Program-made: the position numbers and the translations under genes
Shown here: in pieces, positions 7,101-58,300 of the stretch
How the letters are laid out: each line of letters opens with the position of its first letter
Position numbering within the stretch: position 1 is the first letter of the stretch
Notes under the pieces: model-generated
What the model saw: the letters and a program-made list of their open reading frames with translations, nothing else
The model's database searches: none
Told to the model about the DNA's origin: nothing
NCBI GenBank assembly: GCA_032622095.1
Contig: CP136069.1
Location: forward strand, 33,020,194 to 33,084,193
Length of the DNA: 64,000 nucleotides
Direction of reading: 5' to 3'
Source of the DNA: Siphonodentalium dalli
Lineage: Eukaryota; Mollusca; Scaphopoda; Gadilida; Siphonodentaliidae

Positions 7101-10100
7101 GTAGAACGCATGCGTACATCTTTTGGGGCCGAGAAAACTAGCTTATTGGCAATTAATTTTCGCATTATTATTTTTATAGCAACTTTTTAAATTCGATCAT
7201 TTCAAATTTGAGCACCCTGGTAATAATATGATGATCCTTCTATGAGGAAATACCGATATCTAATATTTCTGATTTCTTCTGCTTTCAATGCTTCGTGTCA
7301 TGGGAATGCTTTTCAAATTATTTTGAAATATATGATGCGCGTTGATTCTTTATTCCTGGAGTGAGGGCCGGGGACATACGTCACTAACGTAATTTATAAA
7401 CCGTCGTTTTAGACGTCAGGTAGCTGCTATCTGGAATCACATACATTGATAACAATTATGAGTGGTTGCGCTATAATTTACATATATTTGCCACAAGCGT
7501 TATTGTACTTACGGCTGAGCGGGTTTATGTGCATTTTACGAACACCTATTAAATAGTTGGAGCGTGTTTCATGTTCAACAACTGGACACAGTCCATGCCT
7601 ATTTTCCTTGTAAATGTAAGTTATAAATATTTTTTTAACTAGTAGCGACTTTCGCATAAGCGTTGTGTTTATGTACTAGTTTATACGTCATTTAAACGTG
7701 TATATATGTTTTAATCAAAACCGCGTTGGGTTACATATATACTTGACGTCGGGGGTCGGGGGTCGGGGGTCACAACTTGCTATGTATTTACGAAAGGGAA
7801 TTGAATCTGGTTTGCATGACATGTCCAACTTACCATGACTTTACGAAGTAGAACTGGATCTGGTTTGCATGACATCGCCAGTTTGGCCATGACCTGTGGA
7901 ACAAGGTCCATTGGGATCTGACGTTCGGCAACAGCTTCGATGACAACCTCGGCGGCTTCTCTCGTCCCAGCGGCGGCGATCGCCTGCCACATGTATGGTC
8001 TGCAACGAAATCAGAGGAGAGGGATGGATAGGGAGAGAGAAAACTCTACGTACGGTCTGTACCGAAATGAGAGGACAGGGAAGAATATGGAGACGGGCAA
8101 ACTACGTATATCGGTCTATAACGAAATGAGATGGCATAATCTCGTCTGCGCAAAGAATGCCGATGTACAATCGAGAAACAATGGACTGGCTCAAAATGTA
8201 TTTCAAAGATTGCACAGGCACCCACGAAACGCAGCGTGTTAAACCGGTTATAGATAGGTGCTGGTCAACCAACGATCATATCGGAACTTCACCTCGATGC
8301 ATTCAATTGTGAGTGCAATACAATATTTATGACTATATATTGCATGGAGATAACGTACTCTCGAGGACCGTCTTCCTGTCACATCCATGTGCAAATAAAT
8401 AATAATTATTGGCGAGAAGTCAGGTGATGATTTCATTAAACATATATACAAGTATATTAATAATGTTATATTTTTATGTCCCTGGTCCGTATATAGTGTA
8501 TATTAATTAGACATATTTACGTTTTGACGAGAACAGGAGTGTCGATTGGACTGTGGGGGTTAATTAATCAGCATTGGAGTTAGCACGGAACTGTCTACAA
8601 TCATGGCACTTGGTATTATTACATTTGAAGGATACATTTCTAACATTTATTTGATCAAAACAGATTTGAATATTATGATTCTTGATGTGAGCTTTTTAGA
8701 TTTTTGTGGATGCTAGACCAGATTTTGATGAACGAAAAAACCGGAAGTTCGGTGGAAAATGATGTTTCAGGTGTTTGACAACCGAGGTCACCGCGTTGTC
8801 TCGTTCTACTGCTTGTTGTGTGGAAATATGAGGTAAATACATTTGGTATTGCATTATAATGCCAGTCATGTATAAATAGTGAAACGCGTAGTTTATACAC
8901 ATCTTCAAATTTAAAGATGTGCTCTGATTTGAATAGTGGACTGGTGTGGCTGTTGTATTTTTTTCTGAAGATATACCAACATTATAAAGATAGAGGAACA
9001 ATTTATCATAGCAAATCACATCCAACACGAACACTGGGTAATCTGTTACTATATTTAGGACCTAATATTTGGGGTCGGGGTTTAATAGGGAGTTGACCTC
9101 CTGACGTCTATAAATTCAATTAACAATCTATCTTTCCGGAACAAAATATCATGAAATGTCACATTCTTATATATGCAGCGACCCCGTGAAACAATACAGT
9201 GGCGTAATGTGGAATTAACATTTATCAAGCGACAATGTCACTAGTCACCCTGTTAATGTGTCAATTTGACACAAACAATTCTACGACTTTCCAAAATAGA
9301 AAAACAAAACAAACAAAGACCTTGAAACACAGGGCGCAATTTGTAAGGTAAGTAAATATAAATGAGAGATATTTGCTCAAATTATTGACTTTCTGGTGCA
9401 GCTTATTCTTATATATGCACCGAATGATACTGCTTTATATAATTATAAACGACCCCGCGAAACATTAGTGGCGGAATGTGGAGTTAACATTTATCAAGCG
9501 ACAATGTCACTAGTCACCCTGTTAATGTGTCAATTTGACACATAAAATTCTACGACTTTCCAAAATAGAAAACACAAAACAATCAAAGACCTTGAAACGC
9601 AGGGCGCAATTTGTAAGGTAAGTAAATATAAATGAGAGATGCTGCATGGTTGTACATAAATGAGAGATGTTTGCTGAAACCGTTACCTTGGTGGTGCAGC
9701 TCCGTTGTATATATATATATATATAAATAAGAGATATTTGCTGGAACCATTACCTTGCTGGTGCCGCTCCGTTGTATTTCTTGACACATTCTCTGAGGGC
9801 GGACTCGCTTGCATTTCTCATCACGTGGATCAGCCTCAATACGAGTTCTGGAGCCTCCTCCAACATAGCTTCGGGTAGTGCAACCAAAGTGTCGAGAACT
9901 CCACCGATCTACATCACACAAGATACAAGAATGTATTGCAAAACACACCAATGGGCAGTTGTAAGATACTATGAGTACCATATATACATAAATAAGCAAT
10001 AGATAATAAATTAATATAACAAACACAGTTCTTATCAACATTCCCCCAACAATTTCTTCAAGTTTTATGATTCCGTCGTAGGAAGAACTGCATGCCTATG

Positions 10101-13100
10101 TATGTACAATCGTTGTTTAATTAATTTAAAAAACACATTGTCTGTCACACATGGAACCGAGTCGATTTTATAATGGTATTACTGGTTGTCGATGCCTCCC
10201 TTTTTCTATTGCCAATATATAAGGATGCGAGTTAGAAACGATAATGTCTTAGATATAAACGATAGATGAATACTAGAATCCCCAGCATCATTTTGGCTTC
10301 CGGCAGCGCAAACAAGGTGTCGATAATTAATCCGATATACATGTATGGCAGCGAGTTATATTTAGTATTATAATTACTCCGATCTACATGTAAGGCATCG
10401 AGTTAGATTTAGTATTTTATTACTCCGATCTACATGTAAGGCAGCGAGTTATAATTAGTATTATAATTACTCCGATCTACATGTAAGGTAGCGTGTTAGA
10501 TTTAGTATCGACAATTACTCCGATCTACATGTAAGGTAGCGAGTTAGATATAGTATTATAATTACTCCGATCTACATGTAAGGTAGCGAGTTAGATTTAG
10601 TATTATAATTACTCCGATCTACATGTAAGGTAGCGAGTTAGATTTAGTATTATAATTACTTCGATCTGCATGTAAGGTAGCGAGTTAGATTTAGTATTAT
10701 AATTACTCCGATCTACATGTAAGGTAGCGAGTTAGATTTAGTATTATAATTACTTCGATCTACATGTAAGGCAGCGAGTTAGATTTAGTATTATACATTC
10801 ATACGACCACGATCAAGACCTGTTTGATTTCGGATGCGGAAATCGTGGCGTATCATTGGTTGAAACAATTTGCGACGGAATCGCAGTCGTTTACACGTAC
10901 AGTTCATAGATGGAAAGATCGTGGTTTATTCATTTTCGGCGATTCCACATCTTCATCTTCGACATTCCACATTTTTATCTTCGACATAACCGTGTGAACA
11001 GTCTATCCACGTTTTTGTCGGGTCCGATTTCTTACTTACAATTTAATCGTGGTTACGTGGACGTACAGTTAAACGACAGCGGCTTCGGTTTGGCTTCGGA
11101 TAGCTAGTCAGGGTGTGGTAAGCCAAATTATACCGGTTATCCAAAAAAGGACATACCGCCGAAATAAATGATATACCGATATAAAGCTGTGGGTGAAGAG
11201 AAGAAATTAGGGAAAAACGGTGTGGTGTTTTGTGATTTCGGAAAGGTACAGGGCGAATATACTGTGGCAAATTTAGTTAATGGGCGACGGCGGAGCCGGA
11301 GCCCATTAACGGGTATTTGCCACAGTATATTTGCCCTATACCTTTCCGAAATCACAAAACACCACACTGTTATCCCCATTCTTATGCTCTTCGAACTTAA
11401 AACGTTATTTAGACAAACAAATTTCTGAAAGTGCATGTATACAGGGCGAATGTACTGACTCAAATTTCGACAAAAGCGAAGTCGCTTGTTTGTTTATATA
11501 GCAACGAGCTAGTAACGGAAGTCAGTAGCAAGGGCGCCAACTCTATACATCTACTCCGTAAAGTCGCCGGCATGTACCGCGTAAGGGTGACGTCGTGGAG
11601 AGAAACGGAACAGTGAGCGGGGCTGGATTGGGCATGGACGATATTAAGAATTCAGCTGACGGCAATATTAGCGCGTGGAATATCTAACATTGAAGCGGTG
11701 AGCCGGACTATACATTGCGACAGGTTATCGATGAATAACCCCCCGCAAATATGTCATGTTTCCGGGGGTATATTGGCCTAAGTGCACTAGAATAAATGAT
11801 ATACCGATATAACGCTGTGGGTGAAGGGAAGAAATAGTGTGTACGCGTAGTACTGTACTGTCACTCTCCTTAAACTCGTGAAAACGGGATCACGTCACAT
11901 TCAAGCAGGTGGAAAGTCGGTTTTGAGAGGATTTAATATCGCCTTCATGATTCTAAGTCCGATGTTTAACACATGCAGTCATAATTACCGGTTGTCTTCA
12001 TAACACAATAAGCATTATGACATACTTTTGGAAATTCCAATGGATCCGCATCACTAAGCAAATGTCTAATCACGCTTTAACTCTTCCGTGACAGGAGCTT
12101 TCTTAAATTTGGCGAAAACACTATGCCTATGTATTCTCTTATATATGCAAGTCTCTCATAGGGACCCTCGCATTTATACCAGAGAATGCACTGGTATGTA
12201 CCGTGACCTTGTAAGTCATGGTATTATGTTATATATGCGAGGATCAATATGGGAGACTCGCATAAATAAGAACACGCACTGGTACTGGATATTTAATGCT
12301 GCACCAGCGCAGCTCCCACAATGAACGGGTAAAAGAAAGGTAAGCGATGTTTTTTTCTGGGAGCATTCACCTTCGCGATAACGAATCCATCTCCGGTTTC
12401 TTTCTGGAGTCTAACTTTCTCCTTGAGGACCTCTGGGAAGAATGGATTATCTGGTTTATCCATCGACTCGGGAAGATCCATCTTCAGTCCACTTGGCTGC
12501 CTTGTGCTCCTGATGAGTTCTGGGATTGGGGCCACTTGTGGAATTGCATCTTCAAGTATCAGAACTTGCCTGGAAGTGGATAAGTCACGTAGTCAAACAT
12601 AATACTGGATAACTAGACGGACATATGGGACCAGATTACATTACGCTTACGTACACATGATACGTGTACATATACACTGTGGGATATACTCTTTCAATAT
12701 AGGTGGATATTAATGTGAATGCCAATTATTGATATAAACGTAGAACAACACAGTTGTGTAAACGTTATTATAAAGGTACTCAATCCAGATCGATGGTCCC
12801 CATATTATCAGATTCCAACAACACCAATGTTTTTTTTGAAATGCCGCTTCTGTTATCCGAATCAATTAATTGCCCAAACAATTATAGGGCATGGTGAGCC
12901 ACAATTTGTTCAACGAAATTTGACCCGTTTGTCAAATATCTGACAAACAAAATGCACTTGATTTTAGAGTTATCCATCTTCAATTTGGTCCGAGACCGTC
13001 TTTTCGTGGCCATTAAAAAGTACCAGTTATGAAAAATAATAGATTTCAAAAATCGATATCTGATCACTTTAAGCTTTGATGGGTGCGTTCCTCGGCTCGA

Positions 13101-16100
13101 ATCAAATAATGTTTGATAACAAGATGAATATGAATCATTATGATCTTTTATTATCTGTTTCTCTGTCTCTTTTCTGCTTTATTACCGGATCACCCATAAT
13201 AATTAAAGAGGTACTGTACACTAAATCCGGCCATTTATCTCCTTTTATACTCAACATAATATGAATGAATTAGAGCCATGGGTGAGTGAAAAATACACTC
13301 CTGTGCTGTACGAATGATGTAAAGAACATGGTGATTATAAAGAAAATGTGTTAATGACCAGAGCCATAAACTCATTTTCATTATAATTACCATGTTGTTT
13401 ACATCGTTCGTAAAGTGTCTTTTGCACTCATCTACATGTAAGACTCAAAAGCGTTCACTTATATAACATAACCAACTGTTATAGCCAAGTAAGAGTTGCT
13501 GTTTGATGGAAGTTTTCACTTTTCTCACAATTTCCGGAAATTTAACAGAATATTTCACGAAAAATCAAACCATGCATTTTGGAATTATCAGCACTCTGTG
13601 TGAACTTACCTAATAAAGATTCCGGCCACTTCTCCCTTGAGCGAGAATAGTGACACCTCGTGTCTTACCTGATAAAGGTTCCGGCCACTTCTCCCTTTAG
13701 CGAGAATGGTGACACCTCGTGTCTTACCTGATAAAGGTTCCGGCCACTTCTCCCTTGAGTGAGAATGGTGACATCTCGTGTCTTACCTGATGAATGTTCC
13801 GCCACTTCTCCCTTGAGTGAGAGTGGTGACACCTCGTGTCTTACCTGCTAAAGGTTCCGACTACTTCTCCCTTGAGTGAGAGTGGTGACACCTCGTGTTT
13901 TACCTGATAAAGGTTCCGGCCACTTCCCCCTTGAGCGATAATGGTGACACCTCGTGTCTTACCTGATAAAGGTTCCGGCCACTTCTCCCTTGAGTGAGAA
14001 TGGTGACACCTCGTGTCTTTCAACACATACGGCGCTCTTGATGACGAACTTCTTTGCGTTTCCAATGATCTCGTATGTGGCACGGGCAGTGGATGCAATT
14101 GGAATGTTCTGGAATATAGGTATTGCAATAATGACATAATTATGCTGCAAAAACATCTATAAAATCCACCAAAGAACCGTAGCAACTTGCTGAATAACCA
14201 TATCAGAAATGTTTAACTCATTTATTTGTCTTTATATTAATAGGGCTTTATACACTCAACATTTGCTTCACTATTACTAGCATACACCAATGTACGCATG
14301 CCATGCCCTGTGTTGTTTATTGTTATCTATAGATGCAGTTTATTTCTCATAACCAACAATTGTTGAAGAAACAGTTTAGCTAGATGCAGTTTATTTCTCT
14401 TGGACCAAATGAGTGCCTTTATGTTCTTTTTTTAGTTACTAATGAAAGAAAAATAACAACACAGGGAGTTCATTTCTCATAACCAACATTGGTTGAATAA
14501 ACAGTTTAGCTATAGCTAAACTGTTTATTCAACCAATGTTGGTTATGAGAAATGAACTGCATCTAGCTAAACTGTATTCAACCATTGTTTGTTATGAGAA
14601 ATAAACTGCATCCAGCTAAACTGTTTATTAAACTATTGTTTGTTAAATATGTTCATTTATGACAAAATATCAGGAAGACGACCGTCACTTGTCAAGACAC
14701 TCTGCCCAGTACCAAAACATATATTATCTGGCTGTTATAGAACGCGTTATTACTACTGGGCAGTAGATGCAGTTGGAATGTTGGGGAAACACTTATTACA
14801 ACAATGCAATAAAGTCAACAACGCGCAATGCGTACACGTAAACGTTAATATACCGTACATGAACGGATGACAGATATTAGTTTCCGTAAATCAGGAAGGT
14901 TTTAGGTCGTTGGCCCCCTTGGAATCGGTGTGAAATTTAGGTGAATTTTACTTTTCGCGATAAACCCCACGGGCCCTGGATAGAAAAACTTTCCTTCCCT
15001 GAATTCTACATTCCCCATTATGAAAGGCCTCTTCCTTCCACGAACTAGAACTCTATATTTGTTAACCCTCTCTATACTGAATGTATTCGCCCATTTTATT
15101 GTGAAGTACACATTGGAGCGGTCTATTTTTAATTTGGAGGTGTGTCCATCTAATAAAAGCTGACGACAGGGCGTGTCAGGTTGGAGATATCCAACAGTTT
15201 GAACGTTACAACACAAGGTTCAAATTGATATCCGTGAACTTTGGATTTAGATATGGTTAAATGTGGAGATGTTGGAACGTTCAAAGTGGACACCCACCAA
15301 CAGAGACCCTCTCACCCCTGGCCTGGCCTGGCCGAATCCGAAACACCCAGATGACCCTCTCGCCACGCCATTAGCCTGGCCGAATCCGAAACACTCAGAT
15401 GACCTATGTTCGACTTACCGGCTGTGGTCCACTCAGATGGTCTCTCATCGACTTACCGGTTGTGGTACACTCAGATGACCTATGCTCGACTTACCGGCTG
15501 TGGTCCACTCAGATGGTCTCTGTTCGACTTACCGGCTGTGGTCCACTCAGATGACCTATGCTCGACTTACCGGTTGTGGTCCACTCAGTTGACCTATGCT
15601 CTCGACTTACCGGTTGTGGTCCGCATTCAGGGCAAGTCCATCCCGCGGCTCCGAATCTGGTGAAGTTTGGTTTGTCTAGACATTTCTTGTAATCTCTGAC
15701 TTTGGTTACGACCATCTCACCCTCCTCAGCCTGTTCTGGTTTCGGCTGTATCTCATACATAGTCTCGCATTCACCTGCTGGTGTCGGCTACAATAAGATA
15801 CCAGAACGTTAGCGTGATCTACACAATCTGTCCAGCAACCGTCATCAACAAACAATAGCATAAGTTTATCTTGATCGTTCCCAACTGTTCATAACAACCC
15901 TCATCAATCGAGTCAAGTTCAGTCAAGCACCACTACCACATTTGTCGGCTCTAAGAAGGTACCACACTATTAACTTGATCGTTCCCAACTGTGTAGCAAC
16001 CCCCATCAATTGAGTTAACCCACAGTACCACACAGATGGTCTCCGCTTTAAGGATATATCGCAATGTCAGCTTGATCGTTCCTAGCTGTGTAGTAGCCTA

Positions 16101-19100
16101 TAGCCAACTTGTGTTTGCGGCCAGAGTTCAGGGTTAATTGAACAGTTTTAAAGACTCTAAATGAAATAGCATTGAGAACTAAAGACAGCAACAAATGCTC
16201 TAAAGTATATATCGTAAGCACACACGATGTATGGAATATGACCATACGCGAGGAATTTAGTTGACACTTGCTTTCCACTGAGGGTTACATCTGCTCAAAT
16301 TTTGAGAAATGATGAAAGTGTGCAGTAACCATCATTGGGGTGTGCGTCCTTTGTAAGTTATATGAATAGTCACCTTTCGCACAATGAACGACTACAGATA
16401 ATTATTACGAATAGCTACTTTAAGTCGTAATTTTTCCGCACGGTCCAAAAACCTTTTCGCATATTTGACGATTACGAGTCGGTTTTTTGTGAGACAATCG
16501 TGCATGCCAGTTACGTCAGGGTATTATGGTGCGTGTCGTGATTATTTTGCAATTAATTGTGCTCAAGCCTTGAAATAGGGTGACTGTCATTTGCAGAATG
16601 TGTAAGCAGAATGAGGTCCCCATAGGGTGAATTTGGTGATGCCAGCCCGCTATGCGAGGTAGCATCACTAAATTCACCCTCTGTGGACCTCATTCTGCAA
16701 ATGACAGACACCCTATTTCAAGGCTTGATTGTGCTGTTATCAGGCCATATAGCTTGACGCTTTGAGTTTCGGAAGATTCCCGATTTTCACGGTAACGAAT
16801 GATATGATTGGCACTAATAGATAAAAAGTAAGGCCGCATGGCGATCACAAATCTCAGAGTCATCTCCCACATTTAGAAGCTGAGAAATAATACGATCGCG
16901 AACTTATTACACTATGATGTATTTGTGAGTTTTGTTGAAAAACCAAAACCGTAATCGTAAAACGGATGGGGAAAAACGACAACGATTAGAACGAACACAA
17001 ATTCGAGTGACGTAGTACCCCATTCGTAATAATTACCTGTTGTCGTTCATGGTGCGAAATATATCTAATATTGGATATCTTATGAAAATAACTGAAGCTA
17101 GTGGCGTAGTACCCAAAAAATTAACTGTCTCGACATTACGAGTCGCTTACTTGTTTGATATCGTATGAAGACAACTGCAGCTTTTAGCCAAAAATTAACT
17201 GTCTCGACATACGAGTTTCTTATATGTTGGATATCTGGTGTGAAGGTAATTGAAGCTATAAGCCAAAAGTAAGCCGCATGTAAGTATGTCATGTTTTATG
17301 TGTTCTGTGTGAAGAGACCTTTTATGTGTTGCTGTCAGTCTTCAACTCATGCGTTAAGTTATGTTAAATAATTTAGTTATCCATATGACTTAACACAAAT
17401 CACTGTACTGTCAATGTCACAGTGGTAACCATAGTTATGAATGATTATGACGATTTATGGTGTATGTAAATGACCTCGAGTGTCTTGAGGAATCAGAATT
17501 TCGGTGATTGATGTGTGTTCTTGATGGTTTATGATGTATGTAAATTACCTCGATTGTCCTGAGGAATCCGAATTTCGGTGATTGAGGTGTGTTTATGATA
17601 GTTTATGATGTATGTAAATTACCTCGATTGTCCTGAGGAATCCGAATTTCGGGGATTGAGGTGTGTTCATGATGATGTTGCTCTCGTCGTCATCTAGAGA
17701 GCGCTTGGAGTCGATATTCATCTCAAACAGTCCAACGAGACCGCGTTTGATGTTCACCGACCACAGTGGATCTTCCTCCTCTGTGCGCAGGTCAAACACG
17801 TGACCGTTGACGTAGCTGAAATAAGATGTAAACTAATATAAGACTGCGTCCGCACACTCGCAAATTTTCTGTAATTATTTACATTTCGATGCCAGAAAAC
17901 AAACGGCCTGGTTGTAGTAATTCTTTCTCTGAAACATTTCACTATGTGCTCTCAAAATGCTTAGCGACATTCGCAGATCAGAATCACTGTACTTATATAT
18001 ACTATTAGTTAAACATTAAACTATTTATCTGTACCTGTTGTTTGACTGCTATATCACCTTAATTGTTATCACCCCTGTGATAACGGCATACTCCCTTATG
18101 AATTGATTTACGTGAAATCTTATGTACACTATAAATTGATATATTTTAAAGGATCAGATAAGAAATTATAATTTATAATCTGCACAACTACACGCAATGT
18201 CATGTTAGATGAAGAGCGTTGACTTAATCATTTCCGGCATCATGCCTCACAAGTTTTATATCATGGTGGACGGGGAAACCTGTACCTGTACAAGTTGGGC
18301 AACAGAACCATAAAATATCCCCATATCTTTAATATGTCTTGCAGCTACGTTCCTTTTCCACCATGATATGCATACACCTGGTTTATAAACATATCGCGTG
18401 AAAAAGTACACGTATAACGGCAGAATGGTCGACCATTTTACTACCCTACTCTACTTGCAGATAGCCGAGGGGTCACTCTCGGTTACCAGTCGATCCTTCA
18501 TACTAGTATTGTCCTGCTAGTCCGGGGGTCGGTGTGGTGCTATGTACCCAGTTTGAAGTTATTGGGTCTGACATCCCCGTTGCCATGATGGCATAAACCA
18601 TAACACAGAAAACAAACGCAAAAATATTTATTAAATTCATCTGTACAGGGTTCACGCTGTCATAGGCCAAATTGGCCGATCGCCATTTTTTTTCGAAAAT
18701 GGCCAACAAAACTTTCATTTGGCCACACTTTTGGCTTAGTTTTTTTTTATCCCAAAATCGGAAATATAATTCAAAAATCCAAATAGAATTTTATAACGGG
18801 AGTGACTTGAGAATCAAATTTATGGTATGACCATCTGCTAATTGATTAGATGATACAACTTAATGAGTAACGAAAGGCCTTCATTGCATTGCACTATCAA
18901 ACAATGGGGCAATACAGCAGTAATGATTATTAACACTAATGAATCATTTGTCTGGCATAATGCTGCATGGGAGATGGTGGGTAGTGGTATAGTGTTAAAG
19001 GGGTACTGTACATTCAATCCGGTCATTTATGGGACCATCTTCTTTTATACTCAACAGAATTATATGCAACAAATGAATGAATGTAAGCGATCGATTAGTG

Positions 19101-22100: not shown

Positions 22101-25100
22101 GCATTACTCTATGTATGTACAGTAAGTAGTTAAAGTTCACCTGGAGCCTGGCGCAACCTTCAGCGACTTGCACTCTGCATAGAGCCTTCAGTTTAATAGC
22201 GGACCATGTTGCACTTTCTCCAGGAAGTCCTGTCGCTATTTGCGTCTCATATCTGTAGATGTATTCACGTCCTGGCTTATAAGCTGGAACAAAAATACAA
22301 TGTACAACTATCACCAGGAACGTGACGAGAAGGTGTTCGTTGTTGGTGTCCACCTTAAAATTACTGCTAGACCGAAATTTCCTACTGCGGGAAACTGTTC
22401 GGCGATTATTGACGGAATTATCCCGTTGTCCGATTCAGATATGTTGGGTTGTCTGGCCGATAACTTGAGATGCATTAGCAATAATTTCATTATATTTTAA
22501 AATACCCAGGTCATGTCGGATTGGAATCAAAGTTTTATCCGATTATTTCTGTAGATTGATCTCTTCCTATTAGTTTAAAATAATTTTTCCAAGTAATAGC
22601 AATTTCAGTCAAAGTAATGGCCGAATTTAGAAATTGTGCAACGTTTGGCCTAAAAACGACACATTACAGTCTGAATACAGATTGATACATCAAAACATTT
22701 GACCAAAGTCGGGGAAGAGTGAGACACGAAAACCCACAGTCGCCGGATCAGCTATATATGTGTCGCCGGGTGAGCTATATGTGTCGCCGGGTGAGCTATA
22801 TATGTGTCGCCGGATGAGCTATATATGTGTCGCCGGGTGAGCTATATATGTGCGGCGTATTGGCTGCTAAATAAAATATGAAATATGAGGATATAGACTA
22901 AAACTTACCAAGTTCTCGAAGCTTCGATTCTATAAAGAAAAGAATATATTAGTAACTTAGAAGCAACTTAAAGGGATTATGTACGCCATTTGCAATAAAT
23001 TCCCGGTAATAACAACGATCTAATATCGATAGAAAATAGAACAATAATAAATTCCCGATAAAATCAACGATCTAGTATAAAAATTATGTTGATACGGGGC
23101 GTAAACTCAAGCCACTCACTGACTAGTGAAGATGCAATAACTTAAATAAGTATATGGGAGTAGTATGCATGTACTATATCATTTATTTGACACACTCTTG
23201 CTTGAAAACTGTACTCAAATTACTCGACAACCACAATTGGTATTTTCGCATTCCGGCCAATCTGCCATCCTTAACGTTTCTTTGTACTCAACATACTTTC
23301 AAATAATGGAAATCTGGTTACCTTATTCTACGACGCAGAGACTATAGAAACCAGCAACAACATTTTGAGTACAGTATCCCTTTAAACATATATGTTGATT
23401 ATTGTTTCGACGTCCGCCTTCCTCCAGGGACGTGGCTAGAGCGTCTCTGTTGGTGGTATCCCCTTGAAATTTCCAACTGCACCGCCCCCCCCCCCCAATG
23501 AACCACAAAAATACCATATGTTCCAAAAATGGCATTTGCACACTCTCTTGGGTTGGAACTTCCCAACTGGTACCACAAACTTTCTAACTGTTGGAGATTA
23601 TTTTCCATCCTGACAACCCCCTTAAGGTTGGACTTTTTCAATTGATTTCCTTTTCAGCTCAACATTTTCACCAAAAGTATAAAAATATGCTACTGTTGAT
23701 CTAAAAACAACAAACTCCCCACGAATTACTTGTTGGAAAATCAACAATGAGAACAATTTCAAGCTATATTTGGTGTAAAATTTCCAACTAATGTGTCAGG
23801 CATGAAATTTCCAACTGTTGAACATTTTTACCAATGTTGTGGGATATAGACACCCCGCACACCCTGTCGCCACGCCCCTGCCAACAGCGCCTTTATATAT
23901 GAACATGCAGTCTGTTATCGCGAAAGGTCCAGTGTTTAAAAGATGTGATCACACCCTTGGTCAAGTGGCCACGCTAATGTGCTATGAGGCGGGTGGGTCC
24001 GATAATGCTGGTAGGGCAAATTGTTGCTGTTAAGAAAAAGTTTTTTCTGAAGTTGTCAGTTTTGCGCGATTCTTTATCATTCCACTATGAACACATCAGT
24101 GGAGTGTTTCACGTCACTTTAAACGGACGTGGCTCATGTTCGATCTTCCAAAGCATGGCTATGTAATTTCGAAGGGGTTATAAGATAGATTGGCAAATAC
24201 CCAAAATATTGATATATGGATTCATATGTACTGAACAATATTTCACATGGTCACAGCCATTTTCAGTCTTCTTCATTTTGTTTCGCACAGAAGTGAAACG
24301 AACGCTCTTTATTTCTACCATATCAGGAATATAGACCAACGTGGAACGCTCATGTCTCTTCCATGCCGTGCAAATGGCGAATTCATTTATAAAAGAATAA
24401 AATTGGAATAGTATATTTTTCATAATCCCGGTGATCCCAGTCCAGTTAATAGTCCAAGGATTATTGATAAAATATAATATTCTCAAACATTCGTTGGCTT
24501 ATGAGATAGTCTTATCACACGATCCTACCCTTATTCCATCCAATAAACCCAGTCTATAAATTGTGATATTAAACGTTCGTTTAATAACAGGAAATAGTGC
24601 CAGGTGACCTTTGATTTCCGGCTTGTCGTATGTTTACATTCCGTACGCTACGTCTCAAAATACTATGGCTTCCAATATTTTTCCAACAAACTATCACTAA
24701 TAAAGAGTTTGACAACTTATGTCATTATATATACGCCATTAAATACGCAAAAGAGCATTTATGTATCTGTGACTATTTTTTTACGCGGCAAACAACCATA
24801 GTTACGTGAAACGTCATCGCATGCCTTATAGAAGCCGATGTTAGTTTCGCGTCCAATTTGTTGATTTAAGTATGTCTTGTCGAGGGTTTGGATCATGTAA
24901 TAAATATAATCTACAACTCGTCCCCAGTTTATAGCGGAATTTACAAAACTCGTCCAGTAAATTAGGCCTGGACTTGGCCAAAGGCTCGGTCCAGACCTAA
25001 TTTACTGGAATCGGTTTGTAAATTCCACTATTAACTGGGGACTCGTTGTAGATCCTCTATTTATTATATGGTTGCCTATATATATAATAGGGCAAATTAC

Positions 25101-29681: not shown

Positions 29682-29787
29682 AACCCTTTCTATACTAAAT
29701 GGATTCTCCCACTCAGTTAATAAGTGTACATAGGAATTGTCAATTATTGTTTTACATGGGTGTTTGTATTATAAGCAGACGACAGAT
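29682..29787. repeat. Dispersed repeat, second copy of the 15.05-kb family
   Basis: Begins AACCCTTTCTATACTAAATG and ends GCAGACGACAG, collinear with 15052-15172. Confidence 0.6.
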
Positions 29788-32722: not shown

Positions 32723-33254
32723 TTAAGGAGAAGGTCAAGTGACCTATTTTGAATGGGCATTTCAATACGAACCCCCGGAGTAAAAGTTACAGAGTTAAAA
32801 TAGTTATGGGTTTGACTTGACGCGGCATTGCCAAGAATACATATGCATGTGGCGGGTTTCTATTATAATTATGTTTTATTTATTTTCGAGTTTTATATCG
32901 ATATTTCAAAAGTAGGTCACGTGTTGTAATTTGATAATATCGCCATGAAGATATATGCTATGGCAGTTTAATGATATGCGTGCATACGTTAATCTCCGGA
33001 CAGCTGTTTCCTATATAACGTTTGCTCCGGAGATTTGCAAAGTTTAGTTTCTCTATATCCCAAAAATTGGCAGCCGACACATTACATAATTGTGGTTCCC
33101 AAATGGGTGAACATCACACTATTCACCATTTGGGAACCGAATGAGGTTTCCAGAGGGTGACTTTGTTGGCTAGCCCGCTGTGCGGGATAGCGTCACTAAA
33201 TTCAAGCTATGGGGACCTCATTCTGCAAATGACAAACTTGGTCCTCCTTCTTAA
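32723..33254. mobile_element. MITE copy with TTAA ends, carrying a nested hAT-like MITE
   Basis: TTAAGGAGAAGGTCAAGTGA at the left; CTTGGTCCTCCTTCTTAA at the right. At about 33105-33230 lies a decayed relative of the 16564 MITE (GCTAGCCCGCTGTGCGGGAT and GACCTCATTCTGCAAATGAC). Confidence 0.75.
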
Positions 33255-40857: not shown

Positions 40858-40898
40858 ACGTGGACATTACAACGGAGATCCTCTATACTAGACTATTC

Positions 40899-42289: not shown

Positions 42290-44325
42290 AATTATCATCG
42301 CCTGATAATCACAATGTGATAACAACCACAGCAGACTCGTCTTTATATAAGTGGTCGTATGTGGTTACCGCGATTGGGCCATGTACGGGTTTAGTGTCAC
42401 GTGATGACCCCAAACCAAATAGTTCGAGCTGCGTGTAGCAATTTTTGGGTGCGGGGTATACAGATGTACTTACATCCCAATAAATCACGAGCCAGAGTAA
42501 CCTACTGGCGAAGTGATTCGCCCTTAAGTGGACGTACATGTATATGGCTACCGCGATTTGCCATGCACGGGTTTCGTGTCACGTGATGACCCCAAAATAA
42601 ATAGTTGCCTGTGGCAATTTTCGGGTGCGCGGTGCACAGATGTACTCAGCCCAAAAAGCAGTAGCATGTGTAACATACCGCTGGTGTGAATCGTCTTTAT
42701 ATAAGTGGTCGTATATGGTTTCCGCGATTGTCCATGTACCGGTTCGTGTCACTTTATGAACCGAAACCAAATAGTTCGAGCTGCATTTGGCAATTTTTGG
42801 TGCGGGGTATACATATGTAGATACAGCCCAAAAATCAAGAGCATGGGTAGCCTACCGGTGGTGTGATTCGTACTTAAGTGATTACCGGATTCGACATGCA
42901 CGTGTTTCGTGTCACGTGATGGTCCCAAAATTAAATAATTCGAGTTGTGTGTAGCAATATTGGGGTGCGGGCTATACAGTTGTACTTACAGCCAAAAATA
43001 AGGAGCAGGGGTAACCTACTGGCGGTGTGATTCGTCCTTAAGTGGTCGTATATGGTTACCGCGATTCGCCATGCACGGGTTTCGTGTCACGTGATGGCCC
43101 CAAAATAAAGAGTTAGAGCTGACTGTGGGAATTTTTTTGGGTGCGGGGTATACCGTTGTACTTACAGCCTATAAATCATGAGCAGGGGTAACCTACCGGT
43201 GGTGTGATTCGTCTTTATACAAGCGGTCGTATATGATTTCCAAGATTGGCCATACACGGGTTTCGTGTCTCGTGATGACTCAAACTAAATAGTTCGAGCT
43301 GCGTGTGGCAATGTTTAGGTGCGAGGTATAGAGATGTACTTACAACTCAAAAAGCAGGAGCAGGGGTAACTTACCGGTGGCGTATTCGTCCTTACGCGTG
43401 GTCCTATTAGGTTATCGCGATTCACCATGCACGGGATTCGTGTCACGTGATGACCCCAAAATTAATAGTTCGAGCTGCGTGTGCCAATTTTTGGGTGCGT
43501 GGTATTCAGTTGTACTTACAGCCCAAATATCAGGAGCAGGGGTAACCTACGGGTGGAGTGATTCGTCTTTATATAAGTGATCGTATATGGTTACAACGAT
43601 TGACCATACACGGGTTTCGTGTCACGTGATGACCCCAAAATAAATAGTTCGAGCTCTTTGTGGCATTTTTTGGGTCGAGGTATTCAGTTGTACTCACAGC
43701 CCAAAAATCATGAGCAGTAGTAACCTACCGGTGGTGTGATTCGTCTTTATACAAGCGGTCGTATGTGGTTTCCAAGATTGGCCATACAGGGGTTTCGTGT
43801 CACGTGATGACCCAAACCAAATAGTTCGAGCTGCGTGTGGCAATTTTTGGGTTGAATGCATACAGACATACTTACAACCCAAAAATCAAGAGCAGGGGTA
43901 ACCTACCTGTGGTGTATTTGTCCTTAAGTGGTCGTATAAGGTTACCGCGATTCGCCATGCACGGGTTTCGTGTCACGTGATGATCCCAAAATAAATAGTT
44001 CGAGCTGCCTGTGGCAATTGTTGGGTGCGGGGTATTCAGTTGTACTTACAGCCCCAAAATCAGGAGCAGGAGTAAACTACTGGTGGTGTGATTCGTCTTT
44101 ATATAAGTGGTCGTATATGGTTACCACGATTAGCCATGTACGGGTTTCGTGTCACGTGATGACCTCAAACCAAATAGTTCGAGCTGCTTGGGGCAAATTT
44201 TGGGTGCGATATATACAGATGTACTTACAGCACAAAAATCAGGAGCAGGGGTAACCTACATGTGGCGATTCGTCTTTATATGTGTGGTAGTATATGGTTA
44301 CCGCGATTCGCCATGCAGATGTTAC
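42290..44325. repeat. 176-bp satellite array, about 11 copies
   Basis: The motif TTTCGTGTCACGTGATGACC recurs at about 42390, 42570, 42742, 42906, 43080, 43260, 43437, 43613, 43793, 43967 and 44145. Other fixed blocks are AAATAGTTCGAGCTGCGTGT, TTGTACTTACAGCCC and TATATGGTTACCGCGATTCG. Units diverge by roughly 5-15 percent by eye. Small frames are repeat by-products. Confidence 0.95.
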
Positions 44326-46712: not shown

Positions 46713-47874
46713 TTTACTTTAAACATATTTTATTCGTATATAAATATACAAAAGGGATCGGGGCACAAGTTATTTCAACTTAGGTAGTCCCTCTCCCGTA
46801 CAAAATTGACAATACATTGTTATAAGATGACAAAAAGGCGATAACAGAAACGTTTGTACATGGTGAGAAAACAATTTGAATTTGCATTATGTCGAATAAC
46901 ATCTTTCAGCGTATGTTTATGGATTACCAATTAGAACGAGCATAAATATGTGCATATCTATATTTATTGTGATATTTAAGGAAGATGTAAATATAGATTG
47001 CGAGGCTATGTATGTATCAAACATTTGACTGTACGGTTAAGCTAAATTTGTAAAGTAGTGAATTTGGCGATTCGCCAGATGACGCCCTTGACAGTTACGC
47101 TGGAAGAAATTATCGGTGTGTATACAAATGATGCATGGATGTGGCAATCCGAATGAGGGAGGGGTGTCTAGCAATGTTTGTATTTGGTGTATATTGAGCG
47201 ATTTGTGGTTGACATTGGATTGTGGCTATATGTCAACGCAGCCAGACGTTCATGAATCGAAGCGTTTTGTCGCAGCAATATACTGTTGCACTATTTGGGA
47301 AAACCTTATATTTTCCGGAATTGAGATGTACGATATCCCGAAAAGAAACTGATCGATGTCGGTTATAATGAAGCGTTCGCGGTTTAACTTATCGTCAAGT
47401 TCCAACCGTTCATTTTGATATAAAGGGCACATAAAAAAGAAATGGTATGCATCTTCCAAAGGGTTCCCACAACTGCAAACAGGACTTTCGGCTATGTAGT
47501 TTTGATACATATCAGCACGAAGATCACTGCACCCGTTTCGAATTCGGGAATGTATCATATTATATCGTCTGAGACCTGAATAGAAATGAGGGCTCACGGG
47601 GTTTGGGGGTTGGTATACGAGTCGTAAATTGAATTTGAAGTCAGAGAAAGGGACAACGTCGGTCATTTCAGTTGGGATTTTGTTCCAATCAGCTATCGCC
47701 GAGGGCAAAAAGGACTTTTTGTAGTGCTCAGTGTGGCATCGGTAAGAATAGAATTTTCCCGGGCGTCTGAAATTATAACTTGAGACCTGGCTAGCTCTGG
47801 GTGGGAGGATGGTAAATATGTAATTTGGCGATTTATTTTTTACTATTTTGTAAATCACTTCAAGCTTGTGTAAA
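46713..47874 (-). mobile_element. 5'-truncated LINE fragment, same type as at 1-1757
   Basis: It is reversed and covers the ORF2 C-terminus plus the 3' UTR. The 3' end on the minus strand is GAATAAAATATGTTTAAAG followed by eight A at about 46716, like the tail of the first LINE. The insertion interrupts an ACCATGG-rich repeat. Confidence 0.8.
47250..47858 (-). CDS. LINE ORF2 C-terminal fragment
   Basis: About 202 residues with no internal stop, starting in the region after the RT palm. It has NGCSDLRADMYQNYIAESP, then the Cys/His cluster CSCGNPLEDAYHFFFMCPLY. The pattern matches the first LINE (CSCG, H, CP) but the sequence differs widely, so it is another subfamily. The frame has no own start; it is a truncated remnant and not expected to be active. 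Confidence 0.85.
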   Translation of the reverse strand: MIYKIVKNKSPNYIFTILPPRASQVSSYNFRRPGKFYSYRCHTEHYKKSFLPSAIADWNKIPTEMTDVVPFSDFKFNLRLVYQPPNPVSPHFYSGLRRYNMIHSRIRNGCSDLRADMYQNYIAESPVCSCGNPLEDAYHFFFMCPLYQNERLELDDKLNRERFIITDIDQFLFGISYISIPENIRFSQIVQQYIAATKRFDS

Positions 47875-48035
47875 CACTAGTTTACCACAAACATTATGGT
47901 AAACACAAAACTTGTATGCAAACACAACAAATTACTACATGTATAGTAACCATAGTAAAACCACGTTCACTATAGAATTACTATGGTTAAACCATGTTTA
48001 CTATATATTTACTACAGTAAACTATGGTAAACCAT

Positions 48036-48130: not shown

Positions 48131-48186
48131 GTGCCTGAAAATACCTGTGCAAACAAGGAGGTGGCAAAATATTGTTTTCCCGTAAT

Positions 48187-48280: not shown

Positions 48281-48805
48281 AATAGAGGATCTACAACGAG
48301 TCGCCAGTTTATAGCGGAATTTACAAAAAGAGTCCAGTAAATTATAGGTCTGGAACGAACCTTTTGTGAGGTCAATACCTAATTTGTTTTACGAGTTTTG
48401 TAAATTCCGCAATACACTGGGGACGAGTTGTAGATTATATTTATTGCATGATCCAATACCTCGATACAAACATACATACGTCAACAAATAGAACGTGAAA
48501 CTAAGATCGGCTTATATAAGGCACGCGTTGACGTTTCACGTAACTATGCGTTGTTTCCCCACGTAAAGAAATAATCCCAGATAAATACACTCTTTGACGT
48601 TTTCAATTGGAATTATTTCATGAAATAACTGTTCAAACTCTTCATTCATTAGAGTTTGTTGGAAAAAATATTGGAAGCCATAGTATTTTAAGACGCAGCG
48701 TACGAAATGTAAACAGACGACAAATTGGAAGTCCAAGATCAACTGGCACAATTTATAGAATCAGTTTATTTAATGGAATAAGGGTCTTATCATGTAATAA
48801 ACTGA
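48280..48805. mobile_element. Inverted copy of the 24.5-25.08-kb element
   Basis: GAGGATCTACAACGAGTC, GTTTATAGCGGAATTTACAA, AATATTGGAAGCCATAGTAT and GGAATAAGGGTCTTATCA run in the opposite order and strand to 24500-25082. Confidence 0.8.
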
Positions 48806-50700: not shown

Positions 50701-50739
50701 AAAAAAAAAGATTCCAGGAAATAATTCCGCTTCGATGTC

Positions 50740-53335
50740 AACAAAGCACTATGTGTACGCAACCAAGATCTTCGAGCAAAAGTCTTTAGTGCAGGAAAGA
50801 AGGGCAGAAGTATAATGTTTAACCTCACCAGAGGACAAAGAGGAAAGTCATACCAATTCATATCTCACATCCATGTCGATTGCAAAATATTTTCTGATGA
50901 TAATATAATAAACGGATGGTCGCTACACTTCAGCGAGCTGGCAAAAATAAAGGATCACGACTACAACTTTAACTTCCTCAAACAATGCCTTGATGACTAC
51001 TGCATCCTAAAGTCGAATGGCTCTCCCGACTGTGTACCACCCATTGGAGCAAACGAGTTAAGAAAGATCTTACCAACAATGAAGAAGGGAAAACACATTG
51101 TCCTGACAAAAGTGGCTTGAACATCGAACTCTTCATCTACGCCTCTGATGGCTTACTCTCTACTATTGCCTCAAGTATCAACAAAATACTGGAAGATGGC
51201 GAGATACCAACTAGCATTAAAATAGGATTACAATCCTACCAGTGATGATGAAACTAGTGGAGTACATCCTTCGGAAACATCTCAGATAAGCGACAGCACC
51301 TCGGCAGTCACCGATACAACGAGGATTCACACCTGGAGCACCCCCTCGCAATAGCGCACTACTGCTTGAGGAAGTCATATGTGAAAGTAGAGACACTAAC
51401 CATCCTATATTCATCGCATTCTTAGATGTTAAATCAGCCTTTGGTGTTGTCAATCACCAAATCATGATGACGAAAATACATCAATACAACATTGGACAGG
51501 GTGTTTGGAGCTTGATTGATGACATGCATATCAACTGCAAATCAACTGTCAAATGGAATCGGGAAGACATCTGAGGAGTTCATAACAGAACAAGGCATGC
51601 GACAACAAAATGTACTAAGTGCTGATCTTTATCAAACCTACATTGAAAAGCTACTAGGACAATTTCAAAAATCTGATTGCCGAACTAAAATTGGCAACAT
51701 CCACCTTAACGCATGTGCCGATGACATTGCAGTTTTCAGTCAAGATCGCAGTCAACTGCAAGTCCTCATCAAATGTGCGCACCACTGCAATAGCTCCACG
51801 TATATCATTTGCAACACCAGAAGAGCGTAATACGCGAAGTCAATCCAATCAACCTAGCTAAAAACAAGAGCAATTACACCTGAACTGTGCAAGGGGACAT
51901 GCTGACTGTAGAGACAGCTCCACATTTAGGAATAATTGTTTTATAGAGCCCATATACAGAATGAGCAGGTGATGCCACAGTGTCCTGGGCCCACAAACAA
52001 GGTACCCCGCCTTGCTCACCGGAAGCTTATATTATGCTAATGATGAACAGACAGTCTGCCGTAGGAGCAGTTTTAGCCAGTCAAAAATACCATGTGCCTT
52101 ACTTACTGAGTCATCGGGACGGGAACTTAAAATATTGCCAAGCATAGTGTGTGTAGAGGAGACATTGCAACATAGCCTGTGTGTTTTGTGTCCAGCAGTA
52201 TTGCGTGAACGATTCTTTTGACAAATATGTTTTAAGCCGTTTTTTGCTCTTATCCTCATTTGACTTTTCCAAAAGGCCTCTGGTCTACCTGCCGGCATCT
52301 CACTTTGACTTGTTTTTGTCATTCTGGTGTGCCAGGTTTGGTGTTCACTACGTCTCGGACAACGTGTTACCTGGTCAGACACCCACTTAGCAAATATTGC
52401 TTACACATAAAAACAATTACACCTGAACTATGCAAGGGGACATGCTGACTGTAGAGACAGCTCCACATTTAGGAATGATCCGATCCACCGTCATCGAAAA
52501 ACGGCAAGAGAAACAGTTGGTAGTAAATAAAACAGTTAGGCCAACAGCTTACAGCCTCATGCCGGTATGATCTCGCGGAGTAAATGGTCTTGGTCCCATC
52601 AGCTGTCTATATATATGTACCAGACATACATGTTTGCCGTACTGCTATATGGTTGTGAAGATCTACAACATAAAGGATCCCACCTACTTAACCTTGAGAT
52701 GTTCCAGAAAATAAAGCTTAATAGAACAATGTCTCTCACAACCAGAGCAGCTGATCTTACTACCTACATCATCTCTGGAATACTCCCTATTAAAGCACAA
52801 CTGGACAACAGGATTTACTATAACGTGTGTACACAAACTGATAAAAGCCCTGAACAACATATTTCTGAACGTCAAATTACAATCATTCTGTCGACAGCTC
52901 CAACTGGTTTGTAGCTTCAAGTAGACCGATGCTGAAATGTGACCTATCAAACGCAAAAGATTTACATCGGAGCCCATCCTCCAAATCACAATTGAAAAAC
53001 CTGACAACATATGTTGTTTCCAAATACTGGACAAACAAACTTTCTGAGCAAGCCATTATCTCTGTAAGCCTTACACACCAGCAGTCTGGTAAGCCACGTC
53101 AAATACTTAAAGCTGACATCAAGCAAGAACAAGCCGCTGTAATGCTTGTTATGCGACTACAACTAGCAACAATGACCTACAACCTAGAAAGCCGTCATTT
53201 CACCAAGACGAAGAATGAAACCGTATGCAGACTTTGTGGAGAAGAGGATGAGGACATACACCACTTCCGTCTGACCTGCTTAACTATAAAAGATACCAGA
53301 GCGAAGGTACCAACTCTGCTCACATATCAAGCCTT
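50740..53335 (+). pseudogene. Decayed non-LTR retrotransposon ORF2
   Basis: Separate open pieces in changing frames follow LINE ORF2 order. They are the pre-RT linker (50815-51120, ending in KKGKHIVLTK), an RT block with AFLDVKSAFGVVNHQIM near 51417, a block with ACADDIAVFSQ near 51713 where YADD has become CADD, a thumb-like block (FAVLLYGCEDLQ near 52630), and a C-terminal Cys/His block (VCRLCGEEDEDIHHFRLTC near 53222). Frameshifts and stops make it inactive. A duplicated 70-bp stretch flanks an insertion at about 51870-52480. The frame seems to resume at 53684 after a MITE. Confidence 0.8.
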
Positions 53336-53683
53336 GAAATAGGGTGTCTGTCATTTGCAAAATGAGGGCCCCAGAGGGTGAATTTAGTGATGCTACCCCG
53401 CATAGCGGGCTAGCATCACTATTTCAAGCCTTGAAATAGGGTGTCTGTCATTTGCAAAATGAGGTCCCCAGAGGGTGAATTTAGTGATGCTACCCCGCAT
53501 AGCGGGCTAACATAACTAAATTCACCATATGGGGACCTAATTCTGCTTACACCTCAGCAGATTGAGGTTCCCAGAGGGTGAATTTGGTGATGCTAGCCCG
53601 CTATGCGGGGTAGCATCACTAAATTCACCCTCTGTGGACCTCATTCTGCAAATGACAGACACCCTATTTCAAGGCTTGATGCT
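53336..53683. mobile_element. Compound hAT-like palindromic MITE inside the decayed LINE
   Basis: At least two joined copies of the 16564 family: TCAAGCCTTGAAATAGGG at the left, again at about 53424, and CCCTATTTCAAGGCTTGA at the right end. The CCCGCATAGCGGGC-type centre occurs three times. Unlike the 16564 copy there is no clean 8-bp flank duplication, as expected for a rearranged dimer. Confidence 0.8.
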
Positions 53684-53803
53684 ATGCCGATTTTGCCTGA
53701 CTCGACGATCAGCAGCACGATACAAGCCATCTTAGATGTCACTAAATTAGATCATTCCATCAAAACAATCGGCAGTATGTTTAACCTGGCAGCCAACCGA
53801 TAA
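53684..53803 (+). pseudogene. LINE ORF2 tail after the MITE insertion
   Basis: A frame to the stop at 53801-53803 reads LPDSTISSTIQAILDVTKLD and ends MFNLAANR, a typical LINE ORF2 end. It continues the block that stops at 53335, so the MITE split the ORF. Confidence 0.6.
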
Positions 53804-55104: not shown

Positions 55105-55370
55105 TTACTTGACCCACGGCCCGTAGGCATTGTCATGTAGTTCTGGGTTGAACTCTGGATCTGGGTCGGGATTCACCGCCGGGACTCTCGTAGAATCGTA
55201 GTAAGCTAACCGGTCTAACATGGATTGCACTGTCTCGTGGTGTGTCCCCGATATGTCATGTTGCTCATTTGGATCAGCTGTTATGTTGAATAACCATAGA
55301 TTCTTATTGCGATGTTCACCAGCACTTACATTGCTACCATTACCTGGCAATACAACCCAGTCGCTGTGAC
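55105..55370 (-). CDS. Arylsulfatase, last exon
   Basis: 266 nt including the TAA stop at 55107-55105. It encodes HSDWVVLPGNGSNVSAGEHR, then NKNLWLFNITADPNEQHDIS, and ends NAYGPWVK. Acceptor ACATTTGTAG. Two possible N-glycosylation sites (NVS, NIT) are seen. Upstream of the acceptor, six further copies of the junction form an array. Confidence 0.92.
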
Positions 55371-58300
55371 CTACAAATGTAACATTTATTACTACCATTG
55401 CCTGGTAATACAACCATGTCATTGTGACCTACAAATGCAAAACATATTACTACAGTTACCTGGTATTACAACCCAGTCACTGTGACCTACAAATGTAACA
55501 CATACTACTTCCATTATCTGGTAACACAAAAGTCACTGTGACCTACAAATATAACACATAGTTCTACCGTTACCTGGTAACACAACCCAGTCATTGTGAC
55601 CTACAAATGTAGCACATACTACTATCATTACCTGGTAATAAAACCCAGTCAAGTGACCTACAAATATAACACATATTATTACCGCTACCTGGTAATACAG
55701 CACAGTTACTGACCTACGAATAGTACAAATAGTCACGGTCACGGACGTGGATTATTGGATAGAGGGTCTCCGTTTGGGGGGGGGGGGTCAAACTTAGAAT
55801 TTCCCAACAACAGCAACAAGTCAATTGTCAATATTTTTCCTTCTTAAATGCAGCAAATTCCAATGTGAATGTATATTCAGTTTCCTAAACTATCTATAAC
55901 AATGTAACGTTGACAACGATGTCCAAATTTATCAACACGGACTAATTTTGGAGCTGAAAACACACATACTTTATGGAGCTTTATTCGTCGAACTGTTGAC
56001 ATTTGGCTGAAGATGGGTTCACAAAGCACCTCGTGGATCCGGACTTGTGTCCGACGAAAAACAATTAATGATAAAATGTTCCTCAAAACAAACCTATCTG
56101 TTCTCTTCACTCGTGCCCGCAACGGTGTTTACTTAATATTTGCCCGCAGCGGGTATTATAGGATGACCAGCGTGTTATTATCTAAACATTTCCCTCAATA
56201 TATTGGGCGCCTTCTGCATTTTGATTTATCTACCGTCTGTTTTTATCACCTTAACATCCCTCCAGATGAATAATAGACCAATTAGTCCGGGAGCTAATAG
56301 GGGTACCCTTGCACCCCCCACCCCCCTGGGACTTAACTTCACCAAACTCATTTTGTTCCTTATTATGTCCTTCAACTTTTAAGCAATGTTAACAAGAACA
56401 AAAAGTGGCCGTGTAGACTCCAGACAAGATGGCGTCCATCATGGCCGCCCTTTTTCAGCTCAGACCTTAGGTCAGTTTTATTCAAAGTATAGCGGGAATA
56501 CTTGTAAAATGTATACAAATTTATATATTTTCGTGAAGCTAAGACATAATGACACTTTTGTGGGCCAAAATTGAAACTCACCATCCATGATGGCCGCCAA
56601 AATGGCCGCCGGAAGTTGAAAATATGACATTTTTTCACAAATATCTTCTAGATCAATTCATGCTGTTTGGAACTGTTTGAGTAATATGACTTTATTTAGT
56701 ATTTTGTATATTAACTGACCATTGGAGCAATTAAATGTGCAACTAATGGGGTCATATCCCCTTCTGATCCCTCAAAAATTCGATTTTACAGAACGCGGTA
56801 CAAAATGTTACAAAAAATCACAATTGGGATTCTAGTCATATTTCAACAAGAAATGAAAAGAACATTGTAATGTAAGTGATGCATATCATTACCAATGAAT
56901 ATTCCAACTCTCTGGAACCAAATCTTACCTTGGCTCAAAATGGCTGCGAAAATGGCCGCCAAAATATGGAAAATGGTAAATATTGTCCCAGGGTGTCCTG
57001 CAATCGCTTAGAAGTTGTGGTTGGTGTATACAATTGGCTAATCTGTATTCTATACATTGCATACTAACATGTCTAATGCACCGTGGATCATTTTTACTAT
57101 TGTCACCACTGACATCACCAGAAATATGGGATTTTTCTCTCACAAACTTGACAAAAATATTGGCAAAAATTCACTTTTCAGGGTTCGACCATTTGTTCAA
57201 GTAAAATGCAACTATCTTTGGTATCAAAGGTGTTTATTGTTTTGGTCTATCGTAAGTGTGTCACACTGTGGTGTTTAAAGACTAAAATGCTCAAGATGGC
57301 TTTCAAAATGGCAACCAAATTTGTAAAAAGTTAAAAGTTAACATATCCCGAACATTATTCTCTGCGTTATCCGAAAAAGATAGCAAATTGTGACTCACTT
57401 GGTTATTTTTACGTATTAGTTAATTAACTGACAAATACGTTCTATTATATTTGTTCTAGTTCCGTATGGGGCATGACAAATTCATTTTAAAGTTGCAGTA
57501 TGGAATTTTGCGGAAAACCTCTTTTGTGATTCTGGCCATATTATTGAAAGGAAATGGGCAGAACGTTGAGACGGAACTGAGATGAACCATCATGATATGT
57601 GGGTATTCAGGCCCATTATGATACAAATTTGTCAACTGGATACAGAGTGGAAGCCAAGATGACAGCCATGAAGTTACTCTATGATCATAGATGAGGATAA
57701 TAAGTACCCAGGGAGTTATTGTATGGTCATGAATGATGTGTGGGTATATAGGGAGTCCCCTATTGGTGACGGTGGGACCTATATTTATATATGTTGTGGA
57801 TGTGTTATCATTGGTGGTGTATGGGGAGTACATGTATGATCATGGATGGCGTGTATATAACTTATGAGTGGCAAGTATGGAACTTATGAGTGGTCGTATG
57901 TGCGGGTATTGGTATGTCTGGAAGGGCTCACCATTGGTATTGTGCATATGTATACCTGGATTGACTCTATGGTCATGTGGATGGCGAATAGGTATACATG
58001 TAGTGGCTGTATGGTCCATGGTGAGGTGAATATGTATACAATGAGTGACTGTATGATCGTGAATGTAGTGAATATGTATACATATAGTGACTTTTTGGTC
58101 ATGCGTCGGGTGTAGGTGTATACCTGGTGTTCATGCATGGCGACTCGTGGCTGTATCGTCATTTGTGGTATGTACGGGTATAACCAAGTATGGCTGCATG
58201 ATCAGGTGTACGTGTATACAGTGGGTTATTATGTTGTCATTTGTGTGGTGTGTATGTACATATGGAGTGACTTGGTGATGAGTGGATTGTACATGTGTAT

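Follow-up and report, generated by a model that had tools for sequence, protein, structure and literature searches.

Minisatellites straddling exon–intron junctions in a scaphopod vitellogenin gene: a probable molluscan counterpart of the amphioxus 'mirages'

Why should the edge of an exon, together with its splice site, be copied again and again into the intron beside it? The question is raised by a 64-kb window of the scaphopod mollusc Siphonodentalium dalli (contig CP136069.1, positions 33,020,194 to 33,084,193; the window is the whole stretch that was analysed), which contains part of a vitellogenin gene and the last exon of an arylsulfatase-like gene. Both genes read on the minus strand, while all coordinates below follow the plus numbering of the window. 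Junction-spanning copies were found in the adjoining intron at 9 of 17 exon–intron junctions, five of them donors and four acceptors, and the repeat units, read on the minus strand, consist either of an exon end followed by GT or of AG followed by an exon start. Taken together, the evidence makes it probable that these arrays are minisatellites of the 'mirage' type described in amphioxus, that is, local duplications whose unit straddles an exon–intron junction, which originate through slippage or microhomology and are filtered by selection.

Eight vitellogenin exons were placed by reading frame, AG/GT splice sites, phase and similarity to lamprey lipovitellin: e2 (exon 2, 22141-22283), A (17623-17815), B (15611-15787), C (13963-14108), D (12371-12569), F (9754-9908), G (7834-7999) and I (3991-4179). 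When joined, their reading matched lamprey lipovitellin in PDB (1lsh, E 8.5e-12) and, more weakly, two further entries, a vitellogenin (9enr, E 2.1e-5) and an engineered protein (E 5e-4). Other searches gave less. A Pfam scan of two of three vitellogenin frames returned a vitellogenin N-terminal match (E 3e-4) and two chance-level matches, all below curated cut-offs; a PDB search with the third frame gave chance-level matches alone; and the partial protein had no match among 5.8 billion proteins, also at a longer nominal length. The sixteen junctions of these exons, plus the acceptor of the arylsulfatase-like last exon (which starts at 55370), make up the set of 17. The first and third vitellogenin exons lie outside it, as do the ones between G and I or past the window end, and a tentative exon H (about 7030-7150) was excluded from every junction count. 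The second gene, of which the last exon alone was located, we take to be arylsulfatase-like from a resemblance in its C-terminal 88 residues; a Pfam scan of whole frames from 55 to 64 kb gave no sulfatase match, just an Extensin-like one below the curated cut-off. Rfam and tRNA scans of the window were both empty. Just downstream of vitellogenin exon I lies a (TCA)n array (3338-3624; about 96 copies, 80% matches).

Tandem arrays were identified with Tandem Repeats Finder, and decayed copies by BLAST of exon edges against their own introns. The most regular arrays occur at three donors. At exon A, the array 17447..17674 has a period of 74 and three copies, each an exon end plus GT; the intronic ones lie at +74 and +148, and that at +74 is identical to the authentic site across 24 nt. 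The exon B array (15392..15622, period 38-40) has six copies, with CCG|GTAAGT in all, and its intronic members fall at +40, +78, +116, +154 and +192. The exon C array (13605..14019, period 59) has seven copies, all with AG|GTAA; six are intronic, from +59 to +353, and two of these (+235 and +294) match the authentic site perfectly across 24 nt. The last copy in this array reads TAG|GTAAGT, which is nearer the donor consensus than the authentic C site itself.

Acceptor edges are copied in much more varied ways. That of exon C (source 14084-14139) has left a single decayed copy at 14758..14812, registering at -674, which retains 78.6% identity over 56 columns and has lost its AG. The acceptor edge of exon F (9868-9914) is the source of a 47-bp array at 10296..10795, which sits some 400 bp away from it. 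The outermost, founder copy (10296-10342) matches the source by BLAST over 47 bp, 41 exonic and 6 intronic, at 76.6% identity (E 3e-6), and the tandem array proper, 10323-10795, traces to the same edge; eight listed copies lie between -475 and -851, with ATGTAG in all eight and ATGTAG|ATCGG in seven. Exon F is also copied at its donor (9353..9768), once near 9686 (+67, GT kept) and once at 9353-9403 (+365, 80% identity), a copy that has lost its GT and overlaps a 193-bp duplication (9179-9370/9450-9640) at its edge. Exon G has an acceptor array at 7993..8131 (period 57, 2.4 copies, AG kept at -57 and -116) and a donor duplication at 7773..7875 (period 53, 1.9 copies), in which the GT of the intronic copy at +53 has become GC. 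Finally, the arylsulfatase-like acceptor lies in an array at 55330..55711 (period about 58, 6.6 copies); of its intronic copies, five are listed between -58 and -287 and one more lies at -343, and all six keep AG.

Thus, the vitellogenin gene alone has copies at 8 of its 16 testable junctions (donors A, B, C, F and G; acceptors C, F and G), and in exons C, F and G the donor and the acceptor are both affected. At the settings used, 7 of the 17 junctions lacked a copy, namely both ends of e2, D and I and the acceptor of A. A marginal case at the acceptor of B (15782..16093, where 15782-15848 matches 15943-16009 at 73.5%) was not counted, as it includes just 6 exon bases. A prior sequence-only reading of this DNA had pointed to arrays at these sites, and Tandem Repeats Finder recovered them there with periods of 53, 57, 47, 59, 38, 74 and 58. 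Its list of affected exons stood in so far as the nine junctions above do carry copies, but its 'exon 7', if equal to our exon D, had none at either end.

What these arrays share is architecture rather than sequence. Unit sequences and periods are unrelated among the nine junctions, which supports mirage-type duplication and rules out a shared mobile repeat; the sequence-only reading was right on this point, and also in naming the exon–intron junction, on donor and acceptor sides alike, as the common feature. The position of the junction within the unit varies as well, with 57 exon nt in the 59-bp unit of C and 12 exon nt in the 38-bp unit of B. The A, B and C units begin and finish at matches of 3-6 bases (AAG at C, TCAT at A and TGAnTG at B), as judged by eye with no chance control.

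It might be asked whether the arrays are real, as one amphioxus mirage is known to have been mis-assembled in a genome draft (PMC3087553). Here, copies within an array are separated by substitutions, with identities of about 90-96% in the A, B and C arrays and about 83-84% in the arylsulfatase-like array (a comparison that excludes the F donor copy at +67, the G donor copy at +53 and the G acceptor copies at -57 and -114), and the decayed C and F acceptor copies stand at 77-79%. Since stuttering by an assembler would give identical copies, an assembly artefact is scarcely credible.

The sequence-only reading knew of no description of such exon-edge amplification, and here it was mistaken, as several papers make clear. 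In amphioxus, minisatellites named mirages occur in the globin genes BflGb6 and BflGb9 (PMC3087553), and that paper cites a 2002 minisatellite study of Adh3 in two Branchiostoma species along with two other amphioxus papers. A further paper added PGBD5 to the mirage genes and also named troponin C (PMC3902484). Duplication can involve 5′ as well as 3′ boundaries, in units of 10 to about 160 bp with AG or GT in many copies; copy number varies between haplotypes, regular splicing seems undisturbed, and the mechanism is described as unclear (PMC3087553). Somatic instability has been reported at Adh3. Mirages also form the basis of a model for intron gain (PMC3087553), the same proposal with which the sequence-only reading had linked the tandem duplications here, and the link is a reasonable one. 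In the two amphioxus papers, the name has so far been applied to cephalochordates (PMC3087553, PMC3902484).

The scaphopod arrays agree with this description in several respects. Their units span the boundary on the intron side of the authentic edge, donors and acceptors are both affected, unit length varies by locus (38-74 bp, inside the published range), and AG or GT is found in many, not all, copies (28 of 31). They differ from published mirages in adding two further genes, in the involvement of half of the testable junctions of a single gene, and in the displacement of the 47-bp array from its source edge. With ordinary intronic minisatellites they share unit size, copy number, decay and abundance across the window; unlike these, their unit holds coding bases and a splice site.

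Related duplications have been reported outside the cephalochordates. A 2009 survey of human segmentally duplicated genes, which arrived at 27 intron modifications following manual inspection, reported that minisatellites at exon–intron boundaries can form novel introns and alternative transcripts (PMC2812944), a second precedent that the sequence-only reading had overlooked. The likeness lies in units placed at boundaries, where cryptic splice sites in the repeats can create introns; the human cases were sought as paralogous-exon variation with transcript support, whereas the present copies lie within pre-existing introns and were read from the genomic sequence. In the RdRp gene of potato, a duplication runs across an intron–exon boundary, and a cryptic GTAAG within the exonic portion of the copy became the new donor (PMC4974935). 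The arylsulfatase-like array has a comparable arrangement, in that 3 of its 5 intronic copies include, within one unit, AG and then, 26-27 nt later, the exonic CAG|GTAA. Unlike the potato gene, the coding structure here appears unchanged, with no demonstrated new intron.

Could the copied sites be used? One conceivable explanation is that the arrays have a function, as alternative splice sites or microexons which diversify or regulate the yolk protein and the sulfatase. Many of the listed copies do retain complete sites: among donors, 14 of 16 have GT, and among acceptors, 14 of 15 have AG. The paired sites of the arylsulfatase-like array, and the capacity of human boundary minisatellites to yield alternative splicing (PMC2812944), point the same way. 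To enter this list of 31, a copy could differ at no more than 9 of 24 positions; a row at -59 of the C donor (9 mismatches, exon-internal) was dropped from it, and the copies at -116 of the G acceptor and -343 of the arylsulfatase-like acceptor (11 mismatches in 24, AG kept) fall outside it.

The reading frames tell against such a function. If spliced, 13 of the 16 donor copies would bring a stop into the extended exon, and two more, B at +40 and G at +53 (GT lost), would shift the frame; only B at +78 would stay open and in frame, adding 26 codons. All 16 acceptor copies tested (2 of G, 8 of F and 6 of the arylsulfatase-like exon, the last with an assumed preceding G, as its upstream exon is unlocated) would reach an early stop; the -674 copy of the C acceptor and the founder of the 47-bp array were outside this test. 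In all, use of 31 of the 32 inner sites tested would result in a stop or a frameshift. Moreover, the reverse-transcription polymerase chain reaction (RT-PCR) of amphioxus globins and the Adh3 data suggest that mirages leave regular splicing undisturbed (PMC3087553). We therefore consider such a function very improbable; the earlier suggestion that the arrays could supply alternative splice sites is possible in principle, but for all except one of the inner sites tested it would carry this cost. Because nearly all inner copies tested would introduce stops or frameshifts, the authentic site should be the outermost in nearly every array, and this original site is presumably the one in use.

These features can be accommodated by mirage-type duplication as follows. 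Duplications would arise throughout repeat-rich DNA, likely by microhomology or slippage, and would then expand and decay as in any minisatellite. Purifying selection would discard those that disturb coding sequence, in keeping with the exon cores, where no duplication was detected. Duplications that straddle a junction would persist, as the normal exon is still obtained from the outermost, original splice site. The splicing machinery would have to keep to that outermost site despite inner copies identical to it over 24 nt, a choice that would fit recognition of the whole exon rather than of the nearest site. The inner copies are most aptly regarded as neutral decoys that may, on rare occasions, serve as raw material for new introns.

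Of course, in DNA this rich in minisatellites some junctions would come to lie inside arrays by plain chance, with no role for selection or for the junctions themselves. Local same-strand duplications cover 23.0% of the window, 14.5% of the vitellogenin region and 26.4% elsewhere in the window, and a strong local copy (score at least 18) exists for 24% of the positions in the window. When junctions were shifted across the whole window, 8 of 17 were hit against a mean of 3.91 (P 0.033). A score test gave P values of 0.028-0.113 within the gene and 0.036-0.101 across the window. In the first rank test, run in 50-nt windows, they were 0.21 (top 5%), 0.24 (top 10%, which held 3 of the 17 junctions) and 0.11 (top 20%). 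All of these leave room for chance. Against it, 6 of 12 duplicated loci held a junction when 1.64 were expected from random placement (P 0.002); this test was made at BLAST E 1e-3, where the F acceptor and G donor copies are undetected, and omits one of 13 loci, which starts outside the tested span. Circular shifts within the gene likewise found 7 of 16 vitellogenin junctions spanned at E 1e-2 against a mean of 2.33 (P 0.0063), with 6 of 16 at E 1e-3 (P 0.0228) and 5 of 16 at E 1e-5 (P 0.0545). The distribution within the gene is also uneven. Duplicated sequence makes up none of the 408 bases of exon cores, 17.4% of the 960 bases of 60-nt exon edges and 36.5% of the 960 bases in the 60 nt of intron adjoining exons, as compared with 13.4% of the remaining gene span (16085 bases, which also include unplaced exons). 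Chance overlap alone is a possible explanation, though not the one we favour.

The opposite explanation is that duplication is directed to junctions, with exon borders preferred, for instance, because of breaks or template switches linked to transcription and splicing, or because of AGGT-like microhomology at splice sites. The excess of 2.4-3.7 fold at junctions speaks for such a process, as does the fact that exons C, F and G are affected at either end. Yet the units have no common breakpoint, as the contrast between the C and B units makes plain, and the excess is modest in a gene that was picked post hoc. In addition, the conserved exon arm of each unit would keep decayed copies detectable for longer than intron-only ones and so inflate the excess for decayed cases. 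We regard junction-directed duplication as unlikely. The boldest form of the idea, in which tandem duplication in this genome preferentially strikes exon–intron borders and a gene with copies at half of its testable junctions is a live nursery of candidate introns, with splicing forced to the outermost of identical sites, would be decidedly doubtful.

Several points weigh against the mirage-type explanation as we have framed it. The junctions exceed randomised controls by 1.8-3.7 fold, so a purely uniform process may not fit, and the tests diverge, with P values of 0.002 for loci and 0.006-0.055 for coverage by high-scoring segment pairs (HSPs) yet 0.03-0.11 by score and 0.11-0.24 by rank. The retention of splice sites in 28 of 31 copies is uninformative on selection, since the list admits only copies close to the authentic site. 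The copy that is spliced is deduced from reading frames and lamprey homology alone. Finally, the human genes with boundary minisatellites do show new introns and alternative transcripts (PMC2812944), so that neutral silence is not a given. Across all tests, the excess (1.8-3.7 fold, P 0.002-0.24) is suggestive rather than firm, and every P value should be read with the knowledge that the vitellogenin gene was chosen for showing the pattern. With 8 of 17 junctions lacking a clear copy and 23% of the window locally duplicated, the word 'systematic' in the sequence-only reading was too strong. Any excess at junctions beyond uniform duplication and selection on coding sequence would be modest.

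The window contains other repeats. A 1.5-kb inverted repeat (56282-57756 and 59992-61461, 86.7% identity) surrounds a 2.2-kb stretch rich in diverged tandem repeats and looks to be of the foldback type. A dispersed family with the common core GAGTGGGAGAATCCATTTAGTATAGAAAGGGT occurs in four places, at about 6080-6111 (+), 15065-15096 (-), 29683-29714 (-) and 61484-61515 (+), with 0-6 mismatches; a 24-base pattern from the GAGTGGGAGAATCCATTTAGTATAGAAAGGGT family was absent in viral_contigs. A small palindromic element resembling a miniature inverted-repeat transposable element (MITE) lies at 16600-16730, 33139-33237 and 53321-53680, in copies up to 96% identical, and a 20-base pattern of it was absent in viral_contigs and genome_contigs. 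Frames that by eye resemble pieces of a reverse transcriptase of the non-long-terminal-repeat (non-LTR) kind were seen at 1-1400 (+), 47250-47876 (-) and 50725-53342 (+); a protein search found no relative of the piece at 47250-47876. Finally, a large tandem array at 42888-44317 consists of about 8 copies of 178-bp units.

As a probable instance of mirage-type duplication, the vitellogenin gene of S. dalli contributes a dense and closely dissected example to a class of repeats that is little known and that offers a concrete route both to the gain of introns and to change in their length. Moreover, arrays in which several donor sites identical over 24 nt compete, while the reading frames favour the outermost, would provide a natural test of exon definition.

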